Assembly: GCF_965363235.1 (NCBI RefSeq)
Contig: NC_134844.1
Coordinates: 76,501,497 to 76,565,496, forward strand
Reading direction: 5' to 3'
Source of the DNA: Mytilus galloprovincialis
Lineage: Eukaryota; Mollusca; Bivalvia; Mytilida; Mytilidae
DNA: 64,000 nt
Positions 12,278 through 62,297 of the stretch are shown here, piece after piece. Within the stretch, counting starts at the first letter, position 1; each line of letters begins with the position of its first letter. A model generated the notes under the pieces. It saw nothing but the letters and a program-made list of their open reading frames with translations, was not told where the DNA came from and did not search any database. The position numbers and the translations under genes were made by a program.

Positions 12278-12945
12278 AAGATGTTGTATTTATGTGTTAT
12301 CTCATCAATATTACCGTAAGCGATAGAAGATGACATGTTGGTTCGATCTAAATAATCGAAATTACCATTGATAAGCAATAATTATACGCTCAAGGTCATT
12401 TTTATCGAAATTGTATTGATACTGGTATATACAAGTAGTTCGTAACAATGATATGTGTAGGTTTTTTTTATTTCAGTTTACCAGTAAATGATTTCAAATG
12501 AATTCTTGCAAAACCAAAGAGAAACGGTAGACAGTAAAACCGGTAGGTACTTTTTATGTAAATTAGGCATGCGGTATGATTGACAATGAGACAACTCTAT
12601 ACCAAAGTTTAGATGAAGTGGATATGGCAATCAAAGGCTACCCTACCGTATAGTCGGCTATAAAAGGCCGATGTGAAAATATGAATCACTTCAATCGAGA
12701 TAGCTTACGTTCAAATTTCTAACCAAAAAGGACAGAAATGAACCAACAACAACCCCATCAATTCATTTAACTAAATTCAGAAGTGTAAAATATAAAACAA
12801 ATAAATTATATATCCTTCAGTAGTTAAGCCTTGAACGTAAATATCAGATTATATTCCGCATTTCTTGAATTTTTCAGTTGCTTGCTTCTATCAAATTTCT
12901 AATCAAACTTTAAGATGACATATTTGATTTACTTTTAACAGCAAG
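12278..12945. other. region upstream of the TRIM-like gene, with a possible 5' UTR exon
   Basis: The coding start at 12946 lies 4 bases after an acceptor (ACTTTTAACAG, ending 12941), so the leader is probably spliced. A block at 12477-12542, bounded by TTTATTTCAG and GTAGGTAC, could be that leader exon. A copy of the GGTATGATTGACAATGAGAC repeat occupies about 12565-12690. The exon proposal is inference. Confidence 0.35.
12565..12690 (+). repeat. GGTATGATTGCCAATGAGACA family, diverged copy
   Basis: Reads GCGGTATGATTGACAATGAG followed by ACAACTCTATACCAAA, then TAGTCGGCTATAAAAGGCC. Related copies are at 16020-16090, 16270-16415, 18050-18200, 25405-25545, 34755-34830, 40745-40900, 41030-41242 (reverse), 44125-44275 and 52200-52375 (reverse). 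Confidence 0.75.
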
Positions 12946-14655
12946 ATGGCTACAAATACATCTAAATGTGTTATGTGTGACCAACAACATAAAACGCCAT
13001 TGTCCGAATACTGGTGTATGGAATGTAAGGAGTCACTATGTTCTAGTTGTAAAGAACGCCACAGTCTATCAAAGGAACGATTTGTTCACACCATCGCACC
13101 TTTATCACAATTCGTACCTACTATCGTATCTGATTTACACTCTTTTTGTATCGATCACAATGAAAACTACCAACATTATTGTATAAAACACGAATGTCTT
13201 ATCTGTTACAAATGCATTACGAAACACGGAAAATGCGATCAGGTTATCCCCCTCGAAGAAGTTGTAAGCAATGTTAAAACTTCTGAGCTGTTTCGAGATT
13301 TAGAACAAAGTTTAAAAGATGCACTTGAAAACATAAAACGCATTCGTGAAGGTAGAGAGAGCAACTTCAAATCTTTTCAAACCCAGAAGAGAAAGATTTC
13401 AATGGAAATCAAAAAAATCAAAGCGCAGATCAATCAACATCTCGACAAATTAGAAGAGGATTTCATAAAAGAACTGAAAAAAGCACATCATAATACTAAT
13501 GATGAGATTCAGTTAGTTATCGTTTCTTTGAAAGACCAAGAAAAAGAGATGGAACATTGCGACAGGTCTTTACGGTACATGACGAGGTATGCCTCCGATC
13601 TCACAACCTTCCTCGGTATGAGGGAAATTCAGTCAAAGGTCACTGATACTGAAACAAGTCTCAGGTCAATGATTGCAAATGAAAGTTTAGACAATGTCAG
13701 CATGAAAGTTAAAATCGATGATAAGATACATGACATTCTTTTATCTGTAAAGACATTCGGTTCAATTTCGATTACGAAAAGTCCATCTGCTGAAACCAAT
13801 ATGTTTAATAAAAAGACAAGACAAGCTCAGATATCAGTACCTTACAGAATGCAATCAATTAAGAACCTTTCAGTTGATTTCAAACAGACGTTAGACACGT
13901 CATGTGAATGGCTTCGAGGATGCTCTATAACTCAAAAGGGTGTTTTTCTTTTCACGAATTACTTTAATTCCTACAAAAAGTTTATAGCAGTTAACACTCA
14001 AGGCAAAACTGAATATACCATCCAGCTATCCGATCCATACAATGCTTTTGATGTAGAATGTATTGATGAGAATACAGTGGCAGTGACAACTGGCAAGTCA
14101 TACAAATTAAGCCAACTCACTGGCATCAGTATTGTTGATCTTACCAAAAGAAAAGTAATAAAGTTCATTGACTTACCTGGTTTCCCCTATGGTATAACAT
14201 ACGACGGTAAATCATTCATATGCTGTGTAGAAGACAAAGATTTACATGTGATATCACGTTCAGACTACAGCATTACAACAATACCAAATACTACACTACC
14301 TCGAAATTCTTACGTCTCATCACGTTCAGGCATGATTTTTTTTACAAATCCGGATTCAAATAAAATATCTTGCTGTTTATATGATGGAACTGCCGTTTGG
14401 GAGTTTGATAGAGGAAACTTTCTGCACACACCACGTGGAATCACTGTTGACGACAAGGGAAATGTTTTTGTTGTTGGACAGGACTCGTGTAATTGCATTG
14501 TCATATCGCCTGATAGAAAACAGTACAAAGAAATTCTAACCAGGAAAAGTGGTCTCAGTTCACCCAGTTCAATTTTCTTTGACAGGATAAAGAAACAACT
14601 TTTAGTGACAAATAATTCGTCCCTGGCAAATGTTTATAACATTTCATATTTTTAA
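12946..14655 (+). CDS. TRIM-like protein: two B-boxes, coiled coil, NHL-like propeller; no RING
   Basis: The 569-residue frame is uninterrupted. Residues 8-48 form a B-box 1-type zinc site (C8, C11, C24, C27, C32, C35, H39, H48). Residues 68-97 form a B-box 2 (C68, H71, C79, H82, C87, C90, H94, C97). Residues about 110-250 are charged and heptad-like, consistent with a coiled coil. From about 300 to the end there are repeats resembling an NHL/six-bladed propeller (for example HTPRGITVDDKGNVFVVGQD). The usual N-terminal RING is absent, so ubiquitin-ligase activity cannot be assumed; a scaffold role or RNA/protein binding through the propeller is inferred from the family. Bivalve genomes carry large expansions of such genes. 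The start follows a splice acceptor closely, so a noncoding leader exon is likely. An AATAAA lies 16 bases after the stop. Confidence 0.9.
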   Translation: MATNTSKCVMCDQQHKTPLSEYWCMECKESLCSSCKERHSLSKERFVHTIAPLSQFVPTIVSDLHSFCIDHNENYQHYCIKHECLICYKCITKHGKCDQVIPLEEVVSNVKTSELFRDLEQSLKDALENIKRIREGRESNFKSFQTQKRKISMEIKKIKAQINQHLDKLEEDFIKELKKAHHNTNDEIQLVIVSLKDQEKEMEHCDRSLRYMTRYASDLTTFLGMREIQSKVTDTETSLRSMIANESLDNVSMKVKIDDKIHDILLSVKTFGSISITKSPSAETNMFNKKTRQAQISVPYRMQSIKNLSVDFKQTLDTSCEWLRGCSITQKGVFLFTNYFNSYKKFIAVNTQGKTEYTIQLSDPYNAFDVECIDENTVAVTTGKSYKLSQLTGISIVDLTKRKVIKFIDLPGFPYGITYDGKSFICCVEDKDLHVISRSDYSITTIPNTTLPRNSYVSSRSGMIFFTNPDSNKISCCLYDGTAVWEFDRGNFLHTPRGITVDDKGNVFVVGQDSCNCIVISPDRKQYKEILTRKSGLSSPSSIFFDRIKKQLLVTNNSSLANVYNISYF

Positions 14656-30962: not shown

Positions 30963-33900
30963 ATGCTGGAATCGTTTCCTTTGTTAATAATTCTGTCTAT
31001 TGTTGGGAATGTTGTCTCGCTTGGGAACGGACCAGGTGTGTGTAGCAGAACAGAACGGTAAGTAAAAGAATAAGCTTGGTCACTTATAAGGTGCTGTAAT
31101 CAATGTGAAACCAGTATGAACTTAGCGATAGCTAGTCCGAGATTGCTCTGGCGTCTAACGGCTGTTTTACCAGACAATCTGGGGCCGTGGAACTTTTCTG
31201 GCAAATCTGCCGTAATACGTCAGAGCAATCTGGGACTAAGTGATAGCAAACTTCAGTAGCTATACGTCACATAGATCTACACTATGTTTGTACCGCAGAT
31301 AATATAGATTTAAAGTGAAATACATTTATGTAGGTAATTTCTGTGTAAGTTAGGAACTAAACATAACAAAACAATTGAAAAAAAACTATTTTATCATAGG
31401 ACTATTCATCCATTTACATAAAATACATACTGTTATCATTCTTGTGAATATCATACAATATGATGAAAATATTGAACATATACTTTTAAAAGATATCACT
31501 ACTATGGCAAGCCGTTCTCGTCAAAACTATGTTTAAACCCTTTTTTCGAAAAAAAAAATACACACTGAGATTTAAAAACCTAAAATAACACACTGAGAAA
31601 TCGAAATTACACACTGAGATTTAAAAAAAATGAAAAACACACACTGAGAATTCAAAATTACACACTGAGATTTTAAAAAGACACACTGAGATGAAATAAA
31701 TTGAAAAACACACACTGAGAATTGTTAATTACACACTGAGATTAATATGCAAATTACTAATGAATATTCATGAGATGAATAATTCAAAAGATTAATATCT
31801 TGATCTCAAGAACTCTTGTCATTATAATGAAATGCGATTCCTTCAACCAACATTCGTAATAAATTTCAAGACTTAACATCGCTCATATTCATAAGTTTGT
31901 TGCCTATAATTCAGATCATTACTACCAGTGTATCGGGATGATTTTTATACGACCGCAAAATTTGAAAAAATTTTCGTCGTATATTGCTATCACGTTGGCG
32001 TCGTCGTCGTCGTCGTCGTCGTCCGAATACTTTTAGTTTTCGCACTCTAACTTTAGTAAAAGTGAATAGAAATCTATGAAATTTTAACATAAGGTTTATG
32101 GCCACAAAAGGAAGGTTGGGATTGATTTTGGGAGTTTTGGTCCCAACATTTTAGGAATAAGGGGCCAAAAAGGGCCCAAATAAGCATTTTCTTGGTTTTC
32201 GCACTATAACTTTAGTTTAAGTTAATAGAAATCTATGAAATTTTGACACAAGGTTTATGACCACAGAAGAAAGGTTGGGATTGATTTTGGGAGTTTTGGT
32301 TCCAACAGTTTAGGAATTAGGGGCAAAAAAGGGCCCAAATAAGCATTATTCTTGGTTTTCGCACAATAACTTTAGTTTAAGTAAATAGAAATCTATGAAA
32401 TTTAAACACAAGGTTTATGACCATAAAAGGAAGGTTGGTATTGATTTTGGGAGTTTTGGTCCCAACAGTTTAGGAATAAAGGGCCCAAAGGGTCCAAATT
32501 AAACTTTGTTTGATTTCATCAAAAATTGAATAATTGGGGTTCTTTGGTATGCCGAATCTAACTGTGTATGCAGATTCTTAATTTTTGGTCCCGTTTTCAA
32601 ATTGGTCTACATTAAGGTCCAAAGGGTCCAAAATTAAACTTAGTTTGATTTTAACAAAAATTGAATCCTGGGGGTTGTTTGATATGCTGAATTTAGAAAT
32701 ATACTTAGATTTTTAATTATTGGCCTAGTTTTCAAGTTGGTCCAAATGGGGGTCCAAAATTAAACTTTGTTCATCAAAAATTGAATAAATGTGTTCTTTG
32801 ATATGCCAAATCTAACTGTGTATGTAGATTCTTAATTTTTGGTCCAGTTTTCAAATGGTCTACATTAAGGTCCAAAGGGTCCAAAATTAAACTAAGTTTG
32901 ATTTTAACAAAAATTAAATTCTTGGGCTTATTTGATATGCTTTATCTAAATATGTACTTTGATTTTTGATTATGGGCCCAGTTTTCAAGTTGGTCCAAAT
33001 CAGGATTCCATATCAAGTATTGTGCAATAGCAAGAAATTTTCAATTGCACAGTATTGCACAATAGCAAGAAATATCTAATTGCACAATATTGTGCAATAG
33101 CAATTAATTTTCAATTGGAGTTATCTTTCTTTGTATAGAATAGAAGTTGATAATATATGTTGGAAATTTGCCAGACATGACTATGATGTCATTTTGTATT
33201 TTTATTTGCCAATAACTTTATGTAAAGAACTTCATTGGAAATTTGCCAATATAAAATGTTGCTGATGAAGCTTTTTTTCCTTATCTTATCTAAAATGTTT
33301 TTAGATAATGTATGTTGGACATTTGCCAGACATGACTATGATGTCATTTTCTATTTTTATTTGCCAATAACTTTATGTAAATAACTTCATTGGAAATTTG
33401 CCAATATAAAATGTTGCTGATGAAGTTTTTTTTATTGTTTTATACAATAAACAATGTATATTCACTTTTACTACCAACCAATCTTTACCATTCAGTGATA
33501 ACAAGCACTTTTTTTACATTTTAATATTTTATGATGTATTTAAAAGAGCAGTTATTGTTGCAAACTCCATTAGAAATTTGAATTGATATCAGTTTTGGAA
33601 AAAGGGAAACGGGGATGTGAAAAAAAAGGGGGGGGGTTTAAATTTTTCTCATTTCAGATTTCATAAATAAAAAGAAAATTTCTTCAAACATTTTTTGAGA
33701 GGATTAATATTCAACAGCATAGTGAATTGCTCAAAGGCAAAAAAAATATTTTAAGTTCATTAGACCACATTCATTCTGTGTTAGAAACCTATGCTGTGTC
33801 AACTATTTAATTTTAGATTTAAAAAGTTTGAAGAAGAAATCTTTAATTGATTTGTAAAATCTTGACATTTGTTTTGTGTAAAAAAAAACATGTAATGTCA

Positions 33901-36900
33901 AAAATTTGATCACAATCCAAATTCAGAGCTGTATCATGCTTGAATGTTTTGTCCATACTTGCCCCAACTGTTCAGGGTTCGACCTCTGCGGTCGTATAAA
34001 GCTGCGCCCTGCGGAGCACCTGGTTTTTACTTAAAACCGTGGGTCCCTTTTCAAAAGTGTTCCAACTGTTTCCCTGGTTTCGCTAGTTAATCTTTTATAT
34101 TTTGTTACGTTTATATGCTATAATAGACACTTGGGTAAAAATTTCACTGCATTCTTTTGCAGATTGTTCCAATGTTTTCTTATGATTTTAATAAAGTTTT
34201 TCACCATTTGGTTATATTTTGTAATAAGAGTAAGTGGGTATTTTTCTTGTTCTTGTATTTCTAAAGTTTTTTTATTAATAATTTGGGACCAAATCGAAGG
34301 ACTAACGAGTTCTGTCTCTTTGTTGTTTTAAGCTTGTAATAGATTCAGATTAAGTATGCTAATTAGATATGTGCGCATAAAAAGTGCGCATAAATCTCAG
34401 TGTGTAATTTTAAATTCTCAGTGTGTACTTTTAAATTCTCAGTGTGTAATTTCAAATTCTCAGTGTGTGTTTTCAGTTTATTTATTCTCAGTGTGTCTTT
34501 TTGAAATCTCAGTGTGTAATTTTCAATTCTCAGTGTGTAATTTTCAATTCTCAGTGTGTAATTTTCAATTCTCAGTGTGTAATTTTCAATTCTCAGTGTG
34601 CGTTTTGAAGTTTTAAAATCTCATTGTGCTTTGTTGTAATTCTCAGTGTGTAAATTTTTCGAAAAATAGTTTAAACATAGTTTTGACGAGAACGGCTTGC
34701 CATACACTACAATGATAAATGTATATAACACAAATATAAACTAAATATCAGAAGTATTAGATGCATGTGGTATGATTGCATTGACGCAACTATCATCAAG
34801 AGAGACCGGAGACCAAATGAAATATAAGCACTATTAATGAGGGGGGGGGGGACAGGGGGTACCCTTCTCCTTTCTCCCACCCCTCTTCTCCTTTCTCCTA
34901 CCCCCGTTCTCCTTTCTTTCATTAGAATAAAACATCTCCTTTTGAGATATTTTTTCTTGAAATATTAGAAAAAAATTTAAAAGGAGAGATATTTTATTTT
35001 TTCTCCTTTCTCAAACTTTTTCTCCTTTCTCCCAGCCTTCCTCTCCTTTCTCCTTTCTCCTAACCCCTTTCTCACTGTCTCCCTTACCCCTGTCCTCCCC
35101 CTCATTAATATGTACATCTATATGAAAACAATGAGTATGATATATATAGTGACAAAAAAATAAGTAACGTTCGAATTGAATTTTGTGATTGTGGTTTACC
35201 ATTCATTGATGACGACACGTGCTTTGAATGTCTTCATGCGTCATTCGACAAATAAAATATTCACGTGATACATATAAACCACAATTATATAATATTAAGA
35301 TTATTGTAAACAATGGATGAAGGTCGTAAGGTACATTGCAGCTTCTAATTGTGTTTCACTTTTACAACTTGTGGTTTGCAACTCGGTTTGCAAAGGCAAA
35401 ATGAAGAGATTGTGCGCGCATAAAATTTGTTTTAAGTACATCATCTTTTGAGCGAGTGGCAATTCGGGTTATCATAAAATAGAAGTTGTCGTTTGTTATT
35501 TTGTTGGGTACGCCAGTATTTACTAGGCGGAGAGGGCTGTTGCTTTTGCTGTTTTTTGTTGGTTTTTTTTAGGGGGGGGGTTAACTGCCAGGTATATTTG
35601 GTAATACCTGTTACCTTTTTTTTTCCATTGCTTAATTTCAAATAAAGACATTAGTTTTTCTTTAAATTTGGATTAAGATATCATTATCTTGGTATTACAG
35701 GAGGCAGGTGATAGAATAAAAATTTTGTAAAACTGTAGAGTTCTAGAGGATGAATAGCAACACTAGCGGAAGAGCTGGGTGGTGGTACCGAAGGGGGGCA
35801 TAACTATTTTTAGCTCACCTGGCCCGAAGGGCCAAGTGAGCTTTTCCCATCACTTTGCGTCCGGCGTCCGTCGTCCTGCGTCCGTCGTCGTTAACTTTTA
35901 CAAAAATCTTCTCCTCTGAAACTACTAAGCCAAATTTAATCAAACTTGGCCACAATCATCATTGGGGTATCTAGTTTAAAAAATGTGTCCGGTGACCCCG
36001 CCAACCAACCAAGATGGCCGCCATGGCTAAAAATAGAACATAGGGGTAAAATGCAGTTTTTGGCTTATAACTCAAAAACCAAAGCATTTAGAGCAAATCT
36101 GACATGGGGTAAAATTGTTTATCAGGTCAAGATCTATCTGCCCAGAAATTTTCAGATGAATCGGACAACCCGTTGATGGGTTGCTGCCCCTGAATTGGTA
36201 ATTTTATGGAAATTTTGCTGTTTTTGGTTATTATCTTGAATATTATTATAGATAGAGATAAACTGTAAACAGCAATAATGTTCAGCAAAGTAAGATTTAC
36301 AAATAAGTCAACATGACCGAAATGGTCAGTTGACCCCTTAAGGAGTTATTGCCCTTTATAGTCAATTTTTAACCATTTTTCGTAAATCTTAGTAATCTTT
36401 TACAAAAATCTTCTCCTCTGAAACTACTGGGCTAAATTAATCCAAACTTGGCCACAATCATCTTTGGGGTATGTAGTTCAAAAAATGTGTCCGGTGACCC
36501 GGCCATCCAACCAAGATGGCTGCCACGGCTAAATATAGGACATAGGGGTAAAATGCAGTTTTTGGCTTATAACTCAAAAATCAAAGCATTTAGAGCAAAT
36601 CTGACATGGGGTAAAATTGTTTATCAGGTCAAGATCTATCTGCCCAGAAATTTTCAGATGAATCGGACAACCCGTTGATGGGTTGCTGCCCCTGAATTGG
36701 TAATTTTATGGAAATTTTGCTGTTTTTGGTTATTATCTTGAATATTATTATAGATAGAGATAAACTGTAAACAGCAATAATGTTCAGCAAAGTTAGATTT
36801 ACAAATAAGTCAACATGACCGAAATGGTCAGTTGACCCCTTAAGGAGTTATTGCCCTTTATAGTCAATTTTTAACCATTTTTCGTAAATCTTAGTGATCT

Positions 36901-39900
36901 TTTACAAAAATCTTCTCCTCTGAAACTACTGGGCTAAATTAATCCAAACTTGGCCACAATCATCTTTGGGGTATGTAGTTTTAAAAATGTGTCCGGTGAC
37001 CCGGCCATCCAACCAAGATGGCTGCCATGGCTAAATATAGGACATAGGGGTAAAATGCAGTTTTTGGCTTATAACTCAAAAATCAAAGCATTTAGAGCAA
37101 ATCTGACGGAGTGAAATTGTTTATCATGTCAAGATCTATCTGCCCTGAAATTTTCAGATGGATCCGACAACCGGTTGTTGGGTTGCTGCCCCATAATTGG
37201 TAATTTTAAGAAAATTTTGACGTTTTTTGTTATTATCTTGAATATTATTATAGATAGAGATAAACTGTAAACAGCAATAATGTACAGCAAAGTAAGACCT
37301 AAAGATAAGTCAAACATGACAAAAATGGTCAGTTGACCCCCTAAGGAGTTATTGTCCTTTATAGTCAATTTTTAACAATTTTCATAAAATTTGTAAATTT
37401 TTACTAACATTTTCCACTGAAACTACTGGGCCAAGATCATTATAGATAGAGATAATTGTAAGGAGCAAGAATGTTCAGTAAAGTAAGATGTACAAACACA
37501 TCACCATCACCTAAACACAATTTTGTCATGAATCCATCTGCTTCCTTTGTTTAATATTCACATATACCAAGGTGAGCGACACAGGCTCTTTAGAGCCTCT
37601 AGTTTTACAAGCCCTTCACAATTTTGGCCACAATAGCTGATTGCATATATAAAATTGAAATATATAAATAGAGAATGTGTTCACATATTATGCCCCCGCT
37701 TGCATATAACATTTTAATAGATTGTGACACTGTGTTCACTGCTGTACCACTTTAGGACATTTTTACCTGTTATGTTTGTTTGTTTTATTTACACATCGTT
37801 GTTAAGGTATGGAATTTGATGCGACTGTCATACAAGTGAGAGGATTAGCGCTATAAAACCAAATTCAATCCACCATTTTCTACATAAGAAAATGCCTGCA
37901 CCAAGTAAGGAATATGACAGATGTTGTCCATTCGTTTGATGTGTTTGTGCTTTTGATTTTGCCATTTGATTAGGAACTTTCCGTTTTGAATTTTCCTTAT
38001 AGTTCAGTATTTTTTTTTATTTTACTTTTTGATACCGGTCTTCTGTAAATCATAGAATGAAATTCAAAACAGTGTGGCTGTGATTGACACATTAAATTCA
38101 TCCATTGACTGGGACAATTTAGGTGAACGTTTGTATGTAACGACCACTGCTCACTATGTACTTTTTATAGACACTTAAACTATGGGGTCACCATAGGTAC
38201 TCAACACCTTAATAAAGTAATTCGAAATATTAATCAGGAATAACACGATGTTTTGATTTATATCAATTGTATAAATCAAAACATAAAGGTTATTCCTGAT
38301 TAATTTTTCGAATTATTTTATAATTAAAGGCGTTAAGAAACCTTTGGTGACCCCACAGTTTAAATGTCTATCGTAGGTACGTCGTGAACAGTGGTCGTTA
38401 CAGACACACGTTCACGTAAATTGTCCCAGTCAGTGGATGAATTTAATGTGTCAATCAATGGCCACAGCCACACTGTTTTGAATCTAAAATCTGACTCAAT
38501 CAGACAGTCCGGTCGAAACTGAAAACCTGTGTTATCGGAAGTGAACAAATTAATCAGATGCATCTGATTCATGAAGTTAAAGTACTTGTCAAATTTGTTG
38601 TTGAGTGCTTGTGTATTTCTTCATTTTCGAAAAAAACATCCCTTTATTTGTTCTTGAGAAAAATGAAAAATAAACCACTAAAACGATTTTTTACACAATG
38701 AAAGAAGAAAATTCGTAAGGATTCCGCAGTGTCTACTTTTGCTGTTAATCGCAGGCTCAACAAATATGAGGGAAAATCAATCAAAATATTACTCTCGATA
38801 CTATCTTTTGATTAATGTAAGAAGCTTCTGTTCAAGTTTGGTAAAAATCCAGGATAGTTTATGAATCTAATAAATGTTTTGAAAACATCCACTGCAGACT
38901 GTATGTAATATTAACCGGAGGAAAAACTAAGTCCATTTATAAGTAAAATACGGATAAACAGGTACAAAATTTTAACAAAATTTCATTCTGGATACTAGCT
39001 TTTGATTATAAACAAGCTTCTGTCCAAGTGTAGTACAAATCCAGGATAGTAAAAGAAAGTTTAAAAAAAAAAATTAAACCACAGAGTGAATGTACATGTA
39101 TGGTAACTATCCTGGCAGTCCATTTATAAGTAAAATACGGGAACAAATGGGTTTTTTTTACAAAAAGTGCTTCTGAATTCTATCTTATGATCATAGAAAA
39201 AGCTTATGTCCAAGTTTGGTACAAATCCGGAATAGTTTAAGAAAGTGATTTACATTTCAAAAACGTTAACCACAGAGTGAATATTTCTCTCGCCGAAGAC
39301 GACGACTGAATGTAGGATCGCCATGTCTCGCTTTTTCGACTAAAGTCGAAGGCTCGATAAAAAGTACCAGATAATATAGATAACTGCTTAAAATTTATTT
39401 TCGTAAATTGTCGACATTTAATTATTGTTAGTTTTTAAGTCGAATGCTGTTATAATATCACAAAATTGTAGTGAGTTAAACATAAAAAATCAACGAAATA
39501 TAAAGAATTTTGCTTTGTTTTATTTTAGCAATGCTTTTCGGACGGTTTCGTGCAATTTAGGAACTTCCTTTCTGTTTCCGAGATTTTCTTTGGTGACAAA
39601 ATAAAAAGATACGTCCACTTGATTTAAACTTTGGTGGATAAGAGTCTCATTTGGCAATCCACTTTTTTTTATATATATAAATGCGTATTTTTTTTATATG
39701 TATGGATATAATTTTTCATGCAGATAACGCTAATACATGTACACTTAAAACTAGAACTGAGGACAAATGTGATAGTTTAATATTCCTATCGTCAACTTTC
39801 CATTCTTGAGAAGTAACAAACCTGGCTCTTATTTTGAATGGAGTTTTCGTGTTTCAGTTGAATGGATGCATGTCTTTCTCTGTCAACGCACCTGGTCAAA

Positions 39901-42900
39901 CTTTGTTTAGTGTATATTCGCCGTATTTAGACATTCCCCCTCATATTTGTGAAGTTGTTTTTGTTCTTTCTCCATTTTCATAGTTGGAAAAATGAGGGTA
40001 AGTAAGAACTGTCCTGTAAAAAGTTGACCCGCAATTCCTCCTTGCAGACATAACGTGGTAAATATGAAAATGTGGATTCATTAATTTTAGTGTGTACGAA
40101 TATTTCGTGGATTATGGATAAATTGCAATTGTGTGGATATTTGATTTCGTATTTCCCCCTAAGTTTGCATACAAGCTTATGTAAAATTTGTATAAATTAA
40201 ATTCGTGGTCCCACTATACTCACGAAATCAACGAAATTTGGCATCACACGAATAATGTTGCTGTATTAAAACATGATATATAAATTAAAATTTGATCGAT
40301 TCCCAGATGCCTCTATAATAACGGAAGTCATTTTTACTTTTTTCAGCCAAACTGTCGATCGAGTTGTGACGAAAGAGGTATATGTTGGAACTACAGAGAT
40401 ACCATGTATTGTCAATAGCTGGCTAGATGAATTATCTTGTATGAACAGAAAAACAAAAACAATGTAGGTATACCGTATACAACGATGTTAGATACACTGA
40501 GTTTAAAAATGCCCCTTTGAATTTCTTGTCTGATTACAGATTATCACATGTATTTGTATTTTCCACCTCTTACACGCGAGGTAAATTCCTATCATGCGCG
40601 ATTCACCAATTCAGAATATAATGCATTCTGAGTAATATTTTTAAAAATGCACACCAAAATCTTTTAATTTATTCTTGGATTCCGAATCGGCGAACTGTTT
40701 GACAGGTCGAGTTTCAAATCACGTAGAATTTGTGTTTATATATATAAAATAAGGAAATGTGATACCGTTGCCAATGAAACAACTTCCAGATGATGTAGAA
40801 GTTAGCAACTTTAGGTCACCGTATGGCCTTTAACAATGAGCAAAATCAATATCGCACAGTCAGTCAGTATACATTTCAAAATGTGAAACATAAAAACGGC
40901 CTTTTTTATGAAATATTAGTAACAATAAACTAAAAAAAAAATAAGAACCGCAACCAACAACACTAATTCTGTAATTCAGTGGTTGTCGTTTGTTTATGTG
41001 TTACATATTTGATTTTCGTTCATTTTTTTTTTTTTTTTTTTTTACATAAATAAGGCCGTTAGTTTTCTCATTTGAATTGTTTTACATTGTCTTATCGGGG
41101 CCTTATATAGCTGACTATGCGGTATGGGCTTTGCTCATTGTTGAAGGCCGTACGGTGACCTATAGTTGTTAATGTCTGTGTCATTTTGGTCTTTTGTGGA
41201 TAGTTGTCTCATTGGCAATCATACCACATCTTCTTTTTTATACATATAAAATGTGGTGGGGTTAAACATGTTTGTGACCGCAAATCACCCCCTTATTTAG
41301 GACAGTGGTGTAAAACCAGAATAACATAGAAAAACAAACTGATCAAAATTTGACAGGCTAATGATACAGTAGTTGATCTACTTAGACCGGTCGGCAATCG
41401 AGGCCCAAAACTAGCTTCGAATTCTCTTTGACCTATAGATCGCTATCGAATGATGGGCTTGCAACGGTAGGGTTGTTCTCTCCATTGCAACATATACAGG
41501 TATCTAAGTCACACTTGTTGCCAAGAGCCAAACAGATACAGGACAGGGGTGCATTCTAGCTTGCAATGGTGTTTTATACTGCTTGTATCATTTATCCATG
41601 TTAAAATACATTCAATTGCAAGACAATAGTTTTATTTAATACATATAATGTTTTATCGTAGAAACGTTACAGAACATAGAAATGAAACAGTACAGGAAAT
41701 CGTTCCCATGGTTATAAAGTTTTGTTGTGCAGGATATACCCTCGTGGGTGACAGATGTATACTGCGTAAGTGTATTAAGTTCAGCATATTAAAACATCGC
41801 CTAAACACTTTATAGCTCATTTCATTGAGTGTGTAGCTAAAGGAAATATTTTTGGTTAGCTTGCTTCATTTAGAAGTAGACTAGTCCGACAGATAACCAA
41901 TCTTTCTGCGTGTAGGACTAGGCTACTTTGAAAGGAGGGAACTATACATTACCTTATAAGGACTTCACGGTTCAGCTAGCAAGCAAGCTAACCAAAAATA
42001 TTCCCTTTAGCTACACACTCAATGAAATCGGCTGCTAAGATTCCAACACCTTAGAATAAATCATTTAACAAAATTATACAGAATATCACATTTTTAGAAA
42101 CATAATTCATTATAGTAAGGGGACTTTTTCTAAGGGCGGACAGGAGGAGTTTCAAAATGTATTTATCCAGACTTGGTAAAAACTTAAATCAGACATACGA
42201 CTTTTAATCTTTGCACGCTCTGTCGTTTTCAGTAAATTGTCAATTTTACCTCTATGTTCGTTTGTGTCTTTTTGTGTTTCTTTTCTAACTAAAAATATGG
42301 CATATCAAATTAACATGTCTTTTATTTTCCATCTTTTAAAATGCAAATGGAAAATAAAACAAACCAATTTTCACGTCGGGGGTGGGGGTGTAAAGGGCGG
42401 ATAAGCCTTAACATGTTTCAGGATTCACATTTGAGTCCAAGGCTGTTGCTTCTTTGTCTAAATAAAGACATGTTAACCTCTTTCCGTGACTAATGACCTT
42501 TATATACTAATATATACAAGTAATATCTATGTTCCTCTGTGTACAGTTGTATCTACAGCGGTTTAAGTGTATCAGATTTGTATTTTACTAACACTGAGAA
42601 CAATTGAAGCCTTTTGGAAACTAGACAGAGGCGGATTAAGGGGTTCAATGTACCCCCTCCTTTTTGTGGCAAATTTGGTTTATTATATAGGGAATAACTG
42701 AGGCATAACTGGAGCGGATCCCTTTTAGGCAGTCATTGCCCTTTCCCTCTAATGAAAATATCTGAATCCGCCGCCAAAGACTGCTTTATACGTATAAGAA
42801 CAATGTTACTTTATTTAAAAGATTTCCCACCATTTATTTAAAACAAATATGCATTAAAATTGAAAAACTGCTTTTTGTCGACTTTTACTAATACTTTTCC

Positions 42901-45524
42901 TTTCTTCTCTTATTAACACAGAAACTACTACAACAACAACAACAACAACGGAGAGAATGACAACCACATCTACAGTTAAAGTAGAAACAACGCAACCACA
43001 AACGACCACAATACCAACAACCATAAAACCAACAACCATAAAACCAACAACTCAACCACAAACAACCATTAAATTAACAACACGACCACAAACAACCGTA
43101 AAACCAACAACGCAACAACAAACAACCATTAAACTAACAACACAGCCACAGACAACCATAAAACCAACAACAGTAAAACCAGAAATTACGACAATTAAAA
43201 AATCCGAAACGACTGTTCCACCAAAATCAACTAAAAGTGTTCTTACAACATCTGAAACCACCATTACTGATATTGCAGCAATAACAGAAAGTAAAGTGAC
43301 ACTTGAAGCAAAAGTTAAACCCAAACCAATCACCAGCGACATAGCAGCCGCAGACAGAACTACACATATTCCAAACGATGAAAAAGACATTAGCCCAGAT
43401 AGTTCCTCTAAAAGTGTTGATACGAGAGATTTGTTATTATATGTGTCGGCTGCCTGCGGACTGTTGTCTTTTATAACTATGATAGTTGTCGTCGGCATAT
43501 GTTATCAGAGATCAAAGAGAAACAACAACCGCCGGTAAGTTTATACAATGCTCGGTTTGATTACACAATGTCAGGTAAAAAATCTTCAACATTTATCGGG
43601 AGGTTTTGCTAGCCACAAGATCAGGTTCAACCCACCATATTTTTCTGAAAAATGTCCTGTACCAAGTCAAGAATCTGGCCGTTTTTATCAAATAGTCCGT
43701 TTCTCTATGTATATTGGCGTTTATTTTATTTGAAGTTCAGTGTTTCTGTGGTTCCGTTGTTTTCCTCTTATAGTTTCTCTCGGTTTTGGTGTGTGACCCG
43801 GATTATTTTTCGCTTGACGCTTAACCAGTTTATGACTATAGGACAGCGGTATATTACTCTTGCCTTTATTGATTAAAAAACTAAAAAAATGTTCTACACT
43901 TGATAATGAAGAAACAAATATTTGAAAATCATAATGATGAATTTGAATTGTAAGAACAATACTTTGTTTTGTAAGATCGACATTTTCAAGTAGGCGCTTG
44001 ACTTTTGTCATATTAAAATTCAACGTATGTGGTTCGCGTTAAAGTGTCATTAAAGGTCATTAAAGGTCATTTAATGTATATTACAATAAACATATTACCT
44101 ATTTATCTAGTTGTAATCCTATAGATATAAGAAGATGTGATATGAGTGCCAATTAGACAACCCCATCCAAGTCACAATTTGTAAAAGAAAACACATTATA
44201 GTTCAAAGTACGGTCTTCAGTACAGAGCCTTGGCTCACACAGAACAGTATTAAGCTAATATATATAAAGGGCCGCAATTACTGCTTTATCGTTTATCTAT
44301 TTATAGAATGTACATTTTATATTTTAGATTCCATAATGATATTCTGTCAATGGAAACGGGTATGTATACATAGTACATTAAAATGTTGTTTTATGTGCCC
44401 CTTTTATCATTCAAAATCGATTAAAATATATGTTCCATAGCAATGGGCAAAATAAGTAAGGGAGTATCGGAAATCATAGATGGCGTTCCTTGTTTTCTAG
44501 CTTTCATGGTCCCCATAAAGAAGATTATTAAATAGATAAGCGTTTGTTCGTTAAAAAGACATCATGACCCTGCATGATAAATGTTATCTCCTTGAGTGAA
44601 GTTGAATAGACGACACACATGGCCCTTAATTAATTATAATAACCACCCAAACAAACACTTTTACCACCAACTCAGTTCGGACAATGGTATTGCTGTAATC
44701 ATACATACAGACATCTTTATATGGTGCTGGGCTTTCAATTATAACATAATATAAGTGCAATGTGAACATATTCAAACAACCACCTTCTGGAACATCGGTT
44801 GTTTACAGATTCACTCGGCGTTTAAAAATTCAGTTGAAAGATCATTGTTTTTTCAATAAAAACATAACTACACTGTCTACTGTTTGATCAACGACTTCTT
44901 GTTGTCTAATATTTCATCATTGATTGGCATTTGTTCTGTCTATTAAACCACGCCCTATCGTCTACTAATCATTATAACGCACCATAAAACTTTTATTGAG
45001 CTAACCGTTGGGTGGGATGGCTCAACGTGTTACAACATGGATGTTATAAATATAATGAAATCTGGTTTGATTGCCTGTTAGATATGTAAGAAAAATACTA
45101 GTAATCCACCAAAGAAACATCTACTGCATTGTACTGGTCACGTACGGGTTAAAATTTTGAGCAATGTTTTGCTTCCAACAACTATACAATTTCGATTAAA
45201 TGAATTTTCTTTTTTTTATTAGTTCGAGTGAACGGTTTGAATCAAATGCATGGTGTGGAAAATCCAAATTATAAGCAGCAAAATGAATCAGAGTGCGTCG
45301 AACCTATAAACTACAGAGAAAAGAAACAAAATTGTAACAACGTGTATACAGAAATGCGCTTAACAGGAGCAAACCAGTACGACGATCTGGTAGGAATCGA
45401 GGAAGACCCGTATGACGAACTACCTGACGAATTACCGGGCGATTACCAAGATTGCGATGCGTCACCAAGATTATACAAGACTTCGGTATCTCCAGAAAAC
45501 CCTTATGATGTTTCAAAGTATTAA
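30963..45524 (+). CDS. EMI-domain, mucin-stalk, type I membrane receptor with cytoplasmic ITAM (six exons)
   Basis: Exons: 30963-31057, 40347-40463, 41662-41765, 42922-43534, 44328-44359 and 45223-45524. All are GT-AG with matching phases and give 420 residues. Residues 1-21 look like a signal peptide (FPLLIILSIVGNVVSL core). Residues 24-105 form an EMI domain: C27, C52, C63, then CCAGY at 92-96 and C103. Residues 106-275 are a Thr/Pro-rich stalk with five 10-residue repeats of the type TTIKPTTQPQ, probably heavily O-glycosylated. Residues 276-300 span the membrane (LLLYVSAACGLLSFITMIVV). The tail has Y337 in NPNY, Y362 in YTEM, and Y373 and Y384 in YDDL-x7-YDEL, an ITAM. Related EMI proteins (CED-1, Draper, MEGF10) are engulfment receptors signalling through NPxY and ITAM motifs, but carry EGF repeats, which are absent here. 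Role as a phagocytic or immune receptor is inference. Intron 1 (9.3 kb) is full of transposons. Confidence 0.85.
31133..31238. mobile_element. 106-bp MITE with AGTCCGAGATTGCTCTG termini
   Basis: The left end TAGTCCGAGATTGCTCTGGC is mirrored at the right by CGTCAGAGCAATCTGGGACT. It lies in intron 1 of the receptor gene, 75 bp after the first coding exon. Confidence 0.8.
31497..34710. mobile_element. 3.2-kb foldback-like element with CACACTGAGA arrays in its termini and a CACTAC target duplication
   Basis: The element proper is 31503-34704. Outer termini: TATGGCAAGCCGTTCTCGTC then AAAACTATGTTTAAAC at the left, and the reverse complement ending GACGAGAACGGCTTGCCATA at the right. CACTAC flanks both sides (31497-31502 and 34705-34710). 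Inward, the left arm (31559-31745) is an array of ACACACTGAGA plus 8-12 variable bases (about nine units). The right arm (34396-34660) is the reverse complement array TCTCAGTGTGTAA (about twelve units). The TATACGACCGC element B is nested between them. Long inverted termini made of short tandem repeats are the hallmark of Foldback elements. No transposase is visible. The 86-codon ORF at 34356 is the array translated. Confidence 0.88.
31944..34022 (-). mobile_element. 2-kb TATACGACCGC element, copy B, nested in the foldback element
   Basis: Reverse complement of 10294-12277: it starts TTTATACGACCGCAAAATTT and ends CGGTCGTATAAAGCTGCGCC then CTGCGGAGCACC. Interior landmarks match copy A in reverse order. 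It has a 154-bp tandem duplication at 33157-33432 (TTTGCCAGACATGACTATGA and TTTGCCAATATAAAATGTTG in both units) that copy A lacks. Confidence 0.85.
34755..34830 (+). repeat. GGTATGATTGCC-family fragment, cut by a foldback element
   Basis: GATGCATGTGGTATGATTGC through GAGACCAAATGAAATATAAG. The copy stops where the element 34833-35109 begins. Confidence 0.6.
34833..35109. mobile_element. small foldback element, ATTAATGAGGGGG termini, CTCCTTTCTC array inside
   Basis: The left end ATTAATGAGG runs into a G-tract and GACAGGGGGTA. The right end is CCCCTGTCCTCCCCCTCATT then AAT. The interior is dense in TTCTCCTTTCTCC units with an inner hairpin, CTCCTTTTGAGATATTTTTT against AAAAGGAGAGATATTTTATT. It is inserted into a GGTATGATTGCC-family copy. 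Confidence 0.85.
35110..35811. other. intronic sequence, nothing recognised
   Basis: Part of intron 1 of the receptor gene. The small ORFs on the minus strand (35011-35202, 35441-35641) are low-complexity translations. No repeat that I can match elsewhere in the window. Confidence 0.4.
35812..37602 (+). repeat. three-unit 502-bp tandem repeat framed by AGCTCACCT/AGGTGAGC ends
   Basis: The left frame is AGCTCACCTGGCCCGAAGGG with a GGCCCGAAGGGCC hairpin. The right frame is AGGTGAGCGACACAGGCTCT with a hairpin AGGCTCTTTAGAGCCT. Between them CTTTTACAAAAATCTTCTCC starts at 35895, 36397 and 36899, an exact 502-bp period, and a diverged, truncated fourth unit starts near 37395. Units 1 and 2 are almost identical, so the two 76-codon ORFs at 35946 and 36448 are the same repeat. 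I recognise this as an abundant mussel repeat; mechanism unknown. It lies in intron 1 of the receptor gene. Confidence 0.9.
37806..38061 (+). repeat. ATGCCTGCACCAAGTAAGGA repeat family
   Basis: Landmarks are GACTGTCATACAAGTGAGAG, AATCCACCATTTTCTACATA, AATGCCTGCACCAAGTAAGG and GGAACTTTCCGTTTTGAATT. A relative is at 43600-43790 (TGTCCTGTACCAAGTCAAGA) and a reverse fragment at about 55195-55260. The right end abuts the palindrome at 38062. Confidence 0.65.
38062..38483. mobile_element. 422-bp near-perfect palindrome (foldback MITE)
   Basis: The left arm ATTCAAAACAGTGTGGCTGT continues GACACATTAAATTCATCCAT, GACTGGGACAATTTAGGTGA and TTAATCAGGAATAACACGAT. The right arm is the reverse complement with scattered substitutions and small indels. 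The centre is TTTATATCAATTGTATAAAT near 38268, so there is almost no loop. It lies in intron 1 of the receptor gene. Confidence 0.9.
38600..39362 (+). repeat. diverged tandem repeat with CAAATCCAGGATAGT units
   Basis: Units containing TTCTGTCCAAGTGTAGTACA-like sequence and AAATCCAGGATAGTTTAAG-like sequence occur near 38830, 39010 and 39210, about 180-200 bp apart, each followed by AAAAAC and CCACAGAGTGAA. The block ends with GCTTTTTCGACTAAAGTCGA and GGCTCGATAAAAAG. Intronic. Confidence 0.6.
40745..40900 (+). repeat. GGTATGATTGCC-family copy, diverged
   Basis: AAATGTGATACCGTTGCCAA, then CAACTTTAGGTCACCGTATG and CCTTTAACAATGAGCAAAAT. In intron 2 of the receptor gene. Confidence 0.65.
41030..41242 (-). 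repeat. GGTATGATTGCC-family copy, reverse orientation, long form
   Basis: GACTATGCGGTATGGGCTTT, GAAGGCCGTACGGTGACCTA, TTGTCTCATTGGCAATCATA and CCACATCTTCTTTTTTATAC. It also includes the upstream part AAGGCCGTTAGTTTTCTCAT, which recurs in the old copy at 52200-52375. In intron 2 of the receptor gene. Confidence 0.85.
41819..42028. mobile_element. 210-bp MITE with about 47-bp inverted termini
   Basis: The left terminus ATTTCATTGAGTGTGTAGCT then AAAGGAAATATTTTTGGTTA and GCTTGCTT is mirrored at the right by AAGCAAGCTAACCAAAAATA then TTCCCTTTAGCTACACACTC and AATGAAAT. In intron 3 of the receptor gene, 54 bp after exon 3. Confidence 0.9.
42626..42776. mobile_element. CAGAGGCGGATT MITE, relative of 24348-24503
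   Basis: The left end CAGAGGCGGATTAAGGGG and the right end CTGAATCCGCCGCC are inverted. In intron 3 of the receptor gene, about 150 bp before exon 4. Confidence 0.7.
43535..44327. other. intron 4 of the receptor gene, two old repeats
   Basis: Contains a diverged ATGCCTGCACCAAGT-family copy (43600-43790) and a GGTATGA-family copy of the 18050 subfamily (44125-44275, with AAGATGTGATATGAGTGCCA and AAAGTACGGTCTTCAGTACA). A short direct repeat, TAAAGGTCATTAAAGGTCAT, lies at 44051-44070. The ORFs here are shadows of the repeats. Confidence 0.6.
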
Positions 45525-54400: not shown

Positions 54401-56707
54401 GAATATCTCTTATTTGGCATTAAAATTAGAAGGATCATATCATAGGGAACATGTGTACTAAGTTTCAAGTTGATTGGACTTCAACTTCATCAAAAACTTT
54501 AACCTGAAGTGGGACAGACGAACGAACGGACGAACGGACGGACGGACGGACGCACAGACCAGAAAACATATTACCCATAAATGTTTGATATCTATTTCAA
54601 ATTGACACATAATGTTAAGAAATGCTTAGGATAAAAAATATAAAAGAAAAACATAAAGATTTTTACCTGATGACATTACAATTACGTCATTATATGTACT
54701 GTTTTTAAAAAATACAGATTTTATGTAGTTTTCCATCTTTATTTCTGTTATTGAAACATCGTGTTCAGGCAAGAAACAATAAGATAATTTAACAGCCTCT
54801 TTATTATTACTTTTGAAATGATCCCACCAAATATAAAGATGTTTCTTGGGTGCGCACATACTTTTTCAATCTAAAAAATACATAAAATTTGATGAAAAAC
54901 AAGGAAAATCACGAAATTTACCAAAAAAATATGCCAAATAAATCATGATTTGTTGCCATTTAAATTTGTTCAATGTCAAATTTGTTTTGTTTCTCTCAGT
55001 ACCTTGCACTGTAGCACGGTTATCAGTTATTTAAGAATACATAATATGATAACTTTTAAATTTGCAAAAAACAGTTCAATGATATTTATGCTTTGTATGA
55101 AAATTTATTTGTGCATGTCTCCATATTTTATGTCCTTAGGAACAGATCGTTTGTTTTTTTTTTGTTTTTTTTTTTATAAAAACACGTAAAATCTGTAAAG
55201 AGAATAATAAAAATAACAAACTCTTAGGAAAATCCAAACCGGAAAGTCCCTTATCAAATTGTAAAATCAAAACTGCAACTGCTGCTAGTAGTATACAAAT
55301 TATCTTTAAAAACTGATAAGAACATATGTAAATAATTGAACTTTTCGTCGGGATCCCGTCTTTATTTAATGTCTCTCTGTTTAAATTAATCATAACTCCT
55401 GTTGTTTGTAATCGTCTTTGCTTTATTATATACTCTTCAATAAGAGGCTAATGAAGTATGTAGAAAACGGTGGATTGCAATGTTGTTTCGAAATGATTTT
55501 ATGAGCAATCCGTATATACTGAACAAAATTTTGATTTAATGGATAAATATATAATAATTGTCAAAAAATATTTTAATAGTGTATACTTATTGACTAGGTA
55601 TGAGTTAAATAGTAAGTTTATTGTCCCCGATTTGCAACGATTGCCAAACTCATAGTATGGACCCTGTTATTCTTTGGTTGCTGTTTGTTATGTTTGTTTT
55701 GCGTTTAATATTTTTCTATTATTAAATTACATGTATGTTTCATTACAATATGAGTTAAACGATTTATAATTACAAATGATAAATTGATATTTTGTAGGTA
55801 TTTAGGAAAAGCCGAGATAAAAGATGAATTAAAATTGGACAATATCTTAAACAGTAAATCTGTAAGTCCCGGTCAACCACGTCGTAAACGTCGCCATCGA
55901 CGGCAAATCAGTCCGAAACCTCCAGCGAAATCACAAATTACACCATTGGTTGAAAAAATTGACGACATTTCTTACGACAAACCAGAAACGCCACGTGATA
56001 AAACGCCTAGCCGACTCGAACGTCAGAAAACATTTAGTATTCCCAAGTTAATGTCACAAACTAGTACATGTACCACACTCCCGTCACTAGATAGGAGGGA
56101 GTCAGTTTATTTTCAGATAGCATCCGGAAATGCTGCAGATTTAAGTAGCGATTCCTCTGAGGACGAAAGCGAGGAACCAACTCTTGCGGTAAAAACGAAA
56201 GATCTGTCAACAAGACGAAGGTCATCATTTGTAGCATGGGTTCAGGAAAACAGTGAGGACCAATCAAATAAAATGCAAGAGAGGTTGCAGCAAATTAAAT
56301 TGAAAGACAATCCACTTGAACAGAGAAGACTGTCATTTTCCAATTTCCTTAAGAAGCGTTTTAAAGCATCACGGAAATCTGTTACTCCCGCTGAACAATT
56401 ACAAGACATTTCAGAAGACACTACTCCAGATTGCGCGGACGTTTTTCCGCCATTTAACAATTCGTATCCACTCGATCCGTATACTGACCAAATGAAATCA
56501 TTGATGCTAAGTAAAACCGGGAGACGTAAACCACCATTGAACGATCGAATAAGTTCGTTTTTTACCCGTATTAGTAATCTAAAAATTCCTGTGTATAATT
56601 TTAACAGTCCTGCACCAAAATTAACTGCTCTGGAGAAAAGACGGTACACGCTGTTAACGAAAGGAATAAATGCCGCTTTAGCTATTTCAAGTGACGAGGA
56701 AGACTAG
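51491..56707 (+). CDS. basic, Ser-rich protein with repeated RRxS-type sites; function unknown (two exons)
   Basis: Exons 51491-51717 and 55798-56707 join in phase (K76) to give 378 residues; the intron is GTAAGT to TTTTGTAG. I do not recognise a family. Visible features: a basic cluster RRKRRHRRQIS at 104-114; sites resembling basophilic-kinase targets at ERQKTFS (150-156), DRRES (174-178), RRRSSF (215-220) and RRLSF (252-256); a related NTFSIS in exon 1 (42-47); an acidic patch, SSDSSEDESEE, at 192-202; and an acidic end, SSDEED. Such a layout, mostly disordered with phosphosites, suggests a regulatory or cytoskeleton-associated phosphoprotein, which is inference. There are no membrane segments or signal peptide. 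An upstream exon (50699-50788) might extend it. The intron holds a SINE, two foldback elements and a candidate opposite-strand exon. Confidence 0.7.
51737..51985 (-). mobile_element. tRNA-derived SINE family with GGCCAGTTTTAATTGGTGGA-like body
   Basis: Read on the minus strand there is an A-box-like AGTGGTCTATGTAG and a B box, GAGTTCGAATCCCG. The body (GGTGTTATAACGCCACTTTT, GGAAGAAGCCGGAGTGCCCA, TAGGAAAACTGATAATTCTG) matches the copy at 57701-57990. It begins only about 20 bp after the donor of the first exon of the Ser-rich gene. Confidence 0.75.
52200..52375 (-). repeat. GGTATGATTGCC family, old reverse copy
   Basis: AAATAAGGTCGTTGGTTTTC matches AAATAAGGCCGTTAGTTTTC at 41047; then TTCTATGCGTTAAGGTTTTT, GTTCATTATTGAAGTTCGTG and CTTTATTTGGTCTCTCTACT follow in the same order as at 41110-41210. 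Strongly diverged. Confidence 0.6.
52791..53073. mobile_element. 283-bp MITE with CTTAAGGTGGTACC termini
   Basis: The left end CTTAAGGTGGTACCCAACAC is mirrored at the right by GTGTTAGGTACCACCTTAAG. AT-rich interior with no ORF. In the intron of the Ser-rich gene. Confidence 0.9.
53135..53290. mobile_element. 156-bp hairpin element with TTGATGCAAGCTAT termini
   Basis: The left arm TTGATGCAAGCTATTCTTCA, then TAGTTTTAACATGGGTAGGC, is mirrored by GCCTACCTATGTTAAAACTA, then TAAAGTATAGCTTGCATCAA. The loop contains GCCCGAGTGATAGTGAGGGC, itself a small hairpin. In the intron of the Ser-rich gene. Confidence 0.88.
54323..54575 (+). repeat. GTACTAAGTTTCAAGTTGAT interspersed repeat with GACG-tetranucleotide tail
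   Basis: AATGTGTCCCCAGTACACGG, TTCAGTGGACCGTGAAAAT, GTGTACTAAGTTTCAAGTTG, TTGGACTTCAACTTCATCAA and a run of GAACGGACG/GACG units from about 54516. I recall this as a common bivalve repeat that follows gene-like 'human-readable' spacing but has no ORF here. Confidence 0.7.
54667..54859 (-). other. candidate coding exon on the opposite strand, in the intron of the Ser-rich gene
   Basis: On the minus strand a TTTTTTAG acceptor lies 11 bases before an ATG. The frame MCAPKKHLYIWWDHFKSNNK, then EAVKLSYCFLPEHDVSITEI and KMENYIKSVFFKNSTYNDVI, then VMSS, runs to a donor (TCAG followed by GTAAAA). The composition is protein-like rather than repeat-like. No second exon was found before the repeat at 54323-54575. 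Family not recognised. Confidence 0.3.
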
Positions 56708-61068: not shown

Positions 61069-62297
61069 TTATATGTCCGATATCCTCTTTTTAATTCGTC
61101 TTGTTTTAAATTCATCCTTTAATTTGCATCTCAAATGTAATTTCATGTATTTCTTATGTTCTCTGCATTTAAACATCTTTTTCAAAGCATATCTGAGTTT
61201 TTCACTAATGGCTATATAGATAAGAAAGTTTGAAGCACATCCAATGATCATTGAAAGTTTTAAAATTTCCATGAGAAGTTAAAACTGTTTCAAGTTAATG
61301 TCAATATGTCCATAGACAATGTTGAGTAAGTGGATCGTTGGTTCACTGTACGGTGAATAAAAAAGTACTATTTGATATGTTGTAAATTTCTCGATGTTAT
61401 GAAATAAGCATTGTAATGCATCTTCCGAATTATTTAATACTCTACTGCAATATTCGATAACTGCAATATCAGAAACGGACTGATGAATCAATTGTACGAT
61501 TTCATTTTAAAAAAAAGTCTCAATCACCACAAGGTCGTCCCTTAGATATTCATAATATATTTATTTCAATTGATATTTATAAACCACATTCACCACAAAT
61601 CGCGGATATTCTTCAGCGACCTTTTCAAAATCAGAAATGAAAACTTCCAGTTCATTAAAAATTATGTTTTGATCATGTTATGGCAGTTCAAAAAAATCAT
61701 AGACGCAGGACTCTCCTGAGATATAACTCAATCTATCATCAAAACATGCTGAATATTTTATCAACCTTAGTCGAAAGTTTCTGTAAGACAACATTCTGTA
61801 TGTCCAAATTGGATCTATAAGTACCGAATAGAGTCGAGCAGACATAAAGCCTTGGAACTTCTGCGAGAAAAAAGACCGTCATGACGCACAAATCAATATA
61901 CAAGATTTTGTTTCAACTCTGGAAGCCGCGGCATGTCCACGGACATGTCTCCGTCGGAACAATATACATATGATATAGCATGTTGATATAAGCATTGTTA
62001 CTATTGCAACAACCAAAATAACGGAGAACACAATCGGATAGTATGCTAGAATATACTTCTGAATGGTATATTGGGGTGCTGAGACTAAACATACATCTTC
62101 CTTCCCACGACTCAGATTATTAAAAATAATCTTGGCACGTTAAAGGCCAGTGTAAACAAAAAGCATGTAGAGCAAACGATGCAAGCTTTCCGTTCATAGA
62201 TCTGAGTTTTACTCCAAACCAAAGAGACGCTGTTAACAGTATGGACGCAAGGTCGAATGTGTCTCCTAGGTTTGTTAGACATTAATGCATTAAGCAA
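61069..62297 (-). pseudogene. class A GPCR remnant, TM4 to TM7, frameshifted
   Basis: Minus-strand pieces in order: SKTQIYERKACIVCSTCFLF and TLAFNVPRLFL (TM4, to about 62112); APQYTIQKYILAYYPIVFSV and ILVVAIVTMLISTCYIICIL then FRRR (ECL2-TM5-ICL3, about 62122-61882); CVMTVFFLAEVPRLYVCSTL (TM6, to about 61740); and KLSMIIGCASNFLIYIAISE then KLRYALKKMF (TM7 and helix 8, 61272-61069). The TM4 and TM5 frames differ by one base in a T-run, and the TM5 and TM6 frames differ again, so it cannot be translated as it stands. TM1-TM3 were not found. The TM7/helix-8 text resembles neuropeptide (FMRFamide-type) receptors, which is only a suggestion. About 0.4 kb of unexplained sequence separates TM6 from TM7. 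Confidence 0.6.

Follow-up and report, generated by a model that had tools for sequence, protein, structure and literature searches.

A 64,000-nt stretch of Mytilus galloprovincialis DNA, the window, contains a real gene for a candidate receptor, which is present in NCBI as uncharacterized. In the window sequence, six exons with AG/GT borders can be joined without a break of phase, giving 420 codons and a stop, and these borders together with the NCBI model bear out the six-exon, 420-residue protein proposed in the first-pass annotation. The features of the gene, in window coordinates, are as follows.

30963..31057, + strand: exon 1, with the start codon, the leader (about residues 1-20) and C27, the first cysteine of the putative EMI domain; same in the NCBI model P0001
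40347..40463, + strand: exon 2, putative EMI domain with C52 and C63; from the exon join and the genome EMI query
41662..41765, + strand: exon 3, end of the putative EMI domain with C92, C93 and C103; from the exon join and the genome EMI query
42922..43534, + strand: exon 4, Thr-rich stalk with 15-, 30- and 60-bp tandem repeats, then the membrane segment
43437..43502, + strand: membrane segment, about residues 278-299; from hydropathy
44328..44359, + strand: exon 5, a 32-nt microexon that restores the frame; peptide kept in P0001-P0004
45223..45524, + strand: exon 6, cytoplasmic tail and stop; from the exon join and the genome tail query
45261..45272, + strand: NPNY (Y337), a PTB-type motif; in 4/4 homologues with a tail
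45345..45356, + strand: YTEM (Y362), a YxxM motif; CTEM in M. californianus
45378..45422, + strand: YDDL-x7-YDEL (Y373, Y384), ITAM pattern; not in M. californianus

The homologues are designated as follows.

P0001: M. galloprovincialis, LOC143083686 isoform X2
P0002: complete 399-aa homologue, encoded on a 1558-nt contig from source 'lgn'
P0003: M. edulis; UniProt name 'EMI domain-containing protein'
P0004: M. californianus, labelled isoform X2
P0005: M. coruscus; C-terminus differs, without such a tail

A direct join of exon 4 to exon 6 is out of phase, so that an additional, frame-restoring exon is needed between them. A splice-score scan gave three candidates, of which the 32-nt exon 5 ranked second behind a longer form at 44307-44359 with the same 3' end at 44359. 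P0001-P0004 carry the peptide of the 32-nt form and not that of the longer one, reading FHNDILSMET in P0001, P0002 and P0003 and YHSDILGMDI in P0004. The NCBI match of the 420-aa product is P0001 (419 aa), and the sole difference between them is one Arg fewer in the NCBI isoform at the exon 4/5 join. The missing Arg maps to CCGCCG at window positions 43529-43534, before the exon 4 donor, and no canonical alternative splice site explaining the difference was seen. The P0002 contig is presumably a spliced transcript, since 1558 nt are too short for introns of such size. P0003 and P0005 extend further at the N-terminus, which hinted at an exon upstream; a search of the window did not reveal one. 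Intron 1 (31058-40346) contains repeat arrays. One, from 35885, has three copies at a spacing of 502 bp; another, at 32033-32510, has three copies of 159 bp; in a third, at 34392-34661, the spacing is mostly 21 bp.

By inspection, the N-terminus of the protein is leader-like over about residues 1-20, and in the hydropathy profile of the 420-aa protein the most hydrophobic 19-residue window begins at residue 280. Translation and hydropathy thus agree with the predicted order of leader, Thr-rich stalk, one membrane segment and tyrosine-containing tail. The claim that EGF repeats are lacking was likewise supported: with a limit of E <= 10, Pfam assigned no family to the 420-aa protein, so that no EGF repeat was seen, and the stalk, which is probably O-glycosylated, is Thr-rich. 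P0001 gave a single sub-threshold Pfam match, to DUF1368 (E 0.066).

Elsewhere in the window, a 575-aa open frame at 12928-14652 (+) is TRIM-like: it matches a B-box zinc finger (E 2.8e-5) and, over a short length, a beta-propeller repeat (E 0.0004). The 317-aa open frame at 55754-56704 (+) has no Pfam match and may be a coding exon, and a frame at 61882-62139 (-) matched a rhodopsin-type 7TM family below threshold, at E 0.0011 and 19 bits (cut-off 30.5).

Relatives and the identity of the N-terminal domain

The first protein search, which requires shared five-residue words and similar length and which distant or much longer relatives may escape, returned 7 proteins at E <= 10 among 4584 candidates. 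Five are true relatives; P0006 and P0007 were rejected, the five-residue words common to them and P0001 all lying within the Thr-rich stalk. Searching with the EMI region only yielded the same five out of 9 candidates. In a third search, the stalk was masked and one reference Draper EMI domain was added as a query row; the 26 matches out of 3675 candidates comprised the five relatives, P0008 and a further 20. Of these 20, 19 bear the names of drosophilid proteins and the last is an unnamed EMI fragment; we attribute them to the added Draper row. P0008, a 107-aa tail fragment, was discarded as an isoform: its end is exon 6-like and its start reads as intron, pointing to unspliced DNA. Besides the two stalk-only and the Draper-seeded matches, the relatives are all Mytilus or close copies. 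P0002 is identical to P0005 across the EMI query and may therefore originate from M. coruscus. The absence of the stalk and of the first EMI cysteine in P0003 was judged to be a gene-model artefact. In the 1.38-Gb genome, the tail query matched this locus only (1 match among 3 candidates) and the EMI query exons 2 and 3 only (2 matches among 5 candidates), so no second copy of the tail exon or of the EMI exons was found with these queries.

Between P0001 and P0002, 79/85 residues are identical in the EMI region, 27/27 in the membrane segment, 109/118 in the tail and 115/141 in the stalk (35 gap columns). The corresponding values for P0001 and P0004 are 61/85, 23/27, 76/103 (16 gap columns) and 93/152 (61 gap columns), and from the gap columns in these alignments the stalk is the most length-variable part. 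The membrane segment, taken as residues 275-301, is kept at 27/27 positions in P0003 as in P0002, and at 23/27 in P0004.

The first-pass annotation had tied its domain assignment to a match of residues 24-105 to an EMI profile. With Pfam EMI (PF07546) no match was obtained at E <= 10 for any of the five homologues or the two window-model inputs, in a search whose HMMER filters discard most weak matches; five EMI reference sequences all matched, at 52.9-71.1 bits. Purpose-built profiles did match. A mixed model built from these five EMI domains scored P0001, P0002 and P0004 at 23.4, 25.3 and 15.2 bits for the domain alone; out of 2000 shuffles of the P0001 domain that kept the cysteines in place, 0, 0 and 2 scored as high, and out of 2000 full shuffles none did. 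A second model was built from ten database Draper domains (eleven given of 20 fetched, one of which misfitted the extraction pattern) and gave 16.3, 18.5 and 15.0 bits; 0, 0 and 1 of 1000 cysteine-fixed shuffles of each protein's own domain reached these values, and 0/1000 full shuffles did so in each case. When 681 sequences were ranked at full length (six proteins and 675 frames, the latter taken from the window and the genome loci L004 and L005), P0002 and P0001 stood directly behind Draper under both models, followed by the window frame with EMI exon 3, the best window frame in both. P0004 ranked fifth with the Draper model and lay outside the best 12 of 681 with the mixed model. Full-length scanning lowered the mixed-model scores of P0001 and P0002 to 18.4 and 20.2 bits.

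The domain contains six cysteines (C27, C52, C63, C92, C93 and C103), with a CC pair near its end. In an alignment with MEGF10, PEAR1 and two Drapers, these six cysteines do not vary, nor do the Glu that follows the first of them and the CCxG motif; EMI domains have three disulfides according to the available portion of PMC11949838. An unrelated six-cysteine domain would account for the missing Pfam match, for a PDB sequence search in which the only match, a fish antifreeze protein, was insignificant (E 2.5), and for low hhalign probabilities, namely 14% in global mode (E 0.00043) and 21% in local mode (E 0.001). The hhalign query had three near-identical rows, and its outcome is therefore given little weight, though it speaks against an easy EMI assignment. 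We consider an unrelated domain improbable in view of the scores above shuffles, the rankings and the aligned cysteines, to which the UniProt name of the M. edulis protein can be added. From the same model scores, rankings and alignment, the N-terminal domain is very probably a divergent EMI domain.

Tyrosine motifs of the cytoplasmic tail

The tail exhibits NPNY (Y337), YTEM (Y362), YDDL (Y373), YDEL (Y384) and NPYD (Y415), at exactly the positions claimed, in the 420-aa translation. NPNY is present in all four homologues with a tail (P0001-P0004), P0005 having no such tail, and the tyrosines of NYRE, DYQD and RLYK are also common to these four. The ITAM pair, YxxL/I-x(6-12)-YxxL/I, was found in the window protein and in three of the four tailed homologues (P0001, P0002 and P0003). 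Both the ITAM and the YxxM motif are absent from M. californianus P0004, where YTEM reads CTEM and 15 residues are missing at the ITAM site; one YDEL is kept there, and the next YxxL lies 13 residues beyond it, one past the limit used. NPYD reads NHYD in P0002 and NHYE in P0004. ITAM, YxxM and NPYD, which the first-pass annotation lists, are thus present in the window protein but variable among its relatives; their weight was overstated there, and neither ITAM nor YxxM defines the family. With the label isoform X2 on P0004, it is conceivable that another M. californianus isoform carries the ITAM stretch, although a single exon contains all of it in M. galloprovincialis.

In 20000 shuffles of the 121-aa tail, the ITAM pattern arose by chance in 2.7% and ITAM together with NPxY in 0.2%. 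With tail starts set by eye, the distance from the tail start to NPxY is 34-35 residues in the window protein, P0004 and an approximate Draper tail sequence. This approximate sequence showed no ITAM pattern, which is a flaw in it, as database Draper-type tails differ: a tail was present in 16 of the 20 fetched drosophilid-type proteins, and all 16 combined NPxY with the ITAM pattern. The spacing of YDEI and YDHL is 11 residues in 6 of these tails and 22 in the other 10.

The ITAM pattern might be incidental to an acidic, Tyr-rich tail in which only NPxY is kept, which would be compatible with a role in either engulfment or adhesion. This is consistent with the M. californianus tail, where a lone YDEL and a too distant YxxL occupy the site and YxxM has likewise gone. 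In P0001, P0002 and P0003, however, the stretch is unchanged, even with 9 differences between P0001 and P0002 over 118 residues of the tail, and we regard an incidental pattern as possible rather than probable.

Proposed function and comparison with known EMI receptors

According to the available text of a review, the tails of Draper and Megf10 carry NPxY plus an ITAM and that of CED-1 NPxY plus a single YxxL (PMC8092387). Src-family kinases phosphorylate the Draper and Megf10 tails, whose ITAM is read by Syk or Shark, and GULP, a PTB protein, is a candidate for reading NPxY in Megf10 (PMC8092387). The review also describes antibody-based ectodomains joined to the ITAM signalling domain of Megf10 (PMC8092387); this suggests that the tail can signal without EGF repeats.

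Our preferred reading, to which we assign a probability of about 0.5, is a compact Draper/NimA-like EMI receptor with an NPxY adaptor site and, in some species, an ITAM input, driving engulfment or contact signalling. The product of LOC143083686 would be a surface receptor that crosses the membrane once. Its divergent EMI head would stand clear of the membrane on a Thr-rich stalk, probably O-glycosylated and variable in length, which takes the place of EGF repeats. A ligand bound by the EMI domain would cluster the receptor. NPNY would recruit a PTB adaptor of the GULP/CED-6 kind, an output common to the four tailed homologues; in some Mytilus, Src-family kinases would in addition phosphorylate the YDDL/YDEL pair and a Syk/Shark-type kinase would be recruited, an output confined to three. 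The recruited adaptor or kinase would then drive engulfment or contact signalling.

An immune or phagocytic role is suggested by analogy only, and the EMI domain may instead serve adhesion, as in NimA. The protein could then be a NimA/PEAR1-like cell-cell adhesion receptor, with the EMI domain making the contact, the tail giving a secondary signal and no phagocytosis involved. NimA requires its EMI domain for S2 cell aggregation, and no scavenger function is reported by its authors in the available text (PMC13076899). Both the length of the Thr-rich stalk and the retention of NPxY would fit a role in adhesion and endocytosis. Against this stand the ITAM pattern in three of four tails, uncommon by chance (2.7%), and the naming of the ITAM for the engulfment receptors Draper and Megf10 in the accessible part of PMC8092387; we consider a purely adhesive receptor unlikely. 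Rather doubtful, too, is a further proposal, of a Mytilus-restricted, single-copy EMI receptor with a mucin-like stalk instead of EGF repeats, in which gain or loss of a full ITAM among Mytilus species, atop a constant NPxY, would make related species differ naturally in the Syk-type signalling of one receptor.

No published description of an EGF-less EMI receptor with such a tail in bivalves, Mytilus or molluscs was found in the open-access literature, outside which most subscription papers lie; the mollusc-related EMI-domain matches, as far as their available text shows, concern eggshell proteins, echinoderm matrix and skin fibroblasts. Within this literature the earlier statement that the architecture is undescribed as a family stands, and the gene is apparently catalogued but unstudied, at present an annotated orphan. 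In the mussel, which has no antibodies, it is a candidate for a receptor on the haemocyte surface. If the tail signals, EMI receptors for engulfment or adhesion could do without the EGF array, and M. galloprovincialis and M. californianus would offer a natural comparison of a single receptor that has an ITAM in one species and lacks it in the other.

Ordinary EGF-bearing EMI receptors of the mussel were not found with three genome queries. A reference MEGF10 EMI domain gave two weak matches (E 2.1 and 2.69), and no EMI-like frame was seen on the reading frames of these two loci. Half a Draper EMI domain, a query without power, gave no candidates, and the Pfam EMI genome search gave no match in the mussel and none in 14 control genomes either, which makes it uninformative. 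A reverse-transcriptase-like open frame is present in the genome locus L004, at 2468-3121.

The mussel protein resembles Draper, CED-1 and MEGF10 in its N-terminal, putative EMI domain, its one membrane segment and YDxL/I-type tyrosines further along the tail, and Draper also in the NPxY about 35 residues into the tail. It differs from them in its Thr-rich stalk, with no EGF-like or NIM repeat seen after the EMI domain, in an EMI domain too divergent for Pfam and, in M. californianus, in the single YDEL with the next YxxL too distant for an ITAM. The motif set of the M. californianus tail is nearer to that of CED-1, whereas those of P0001-P0003 are nearer to Draper. PEAR1/Jedi (MEGF12) combines EMI with a tyrosine tail, as does the mussel protein, and NimA is not known to have a mucin-like stalk. 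In the available text of PMC13076899, PEAR1/Jedi (MEGF12) differs by its multiple EGF repeats, and NimA, which resembles the mussel protein as a small receptor with one EMI domain and a tyrosine tail without known domain, differs by one NIM and two EGF-like repeats.
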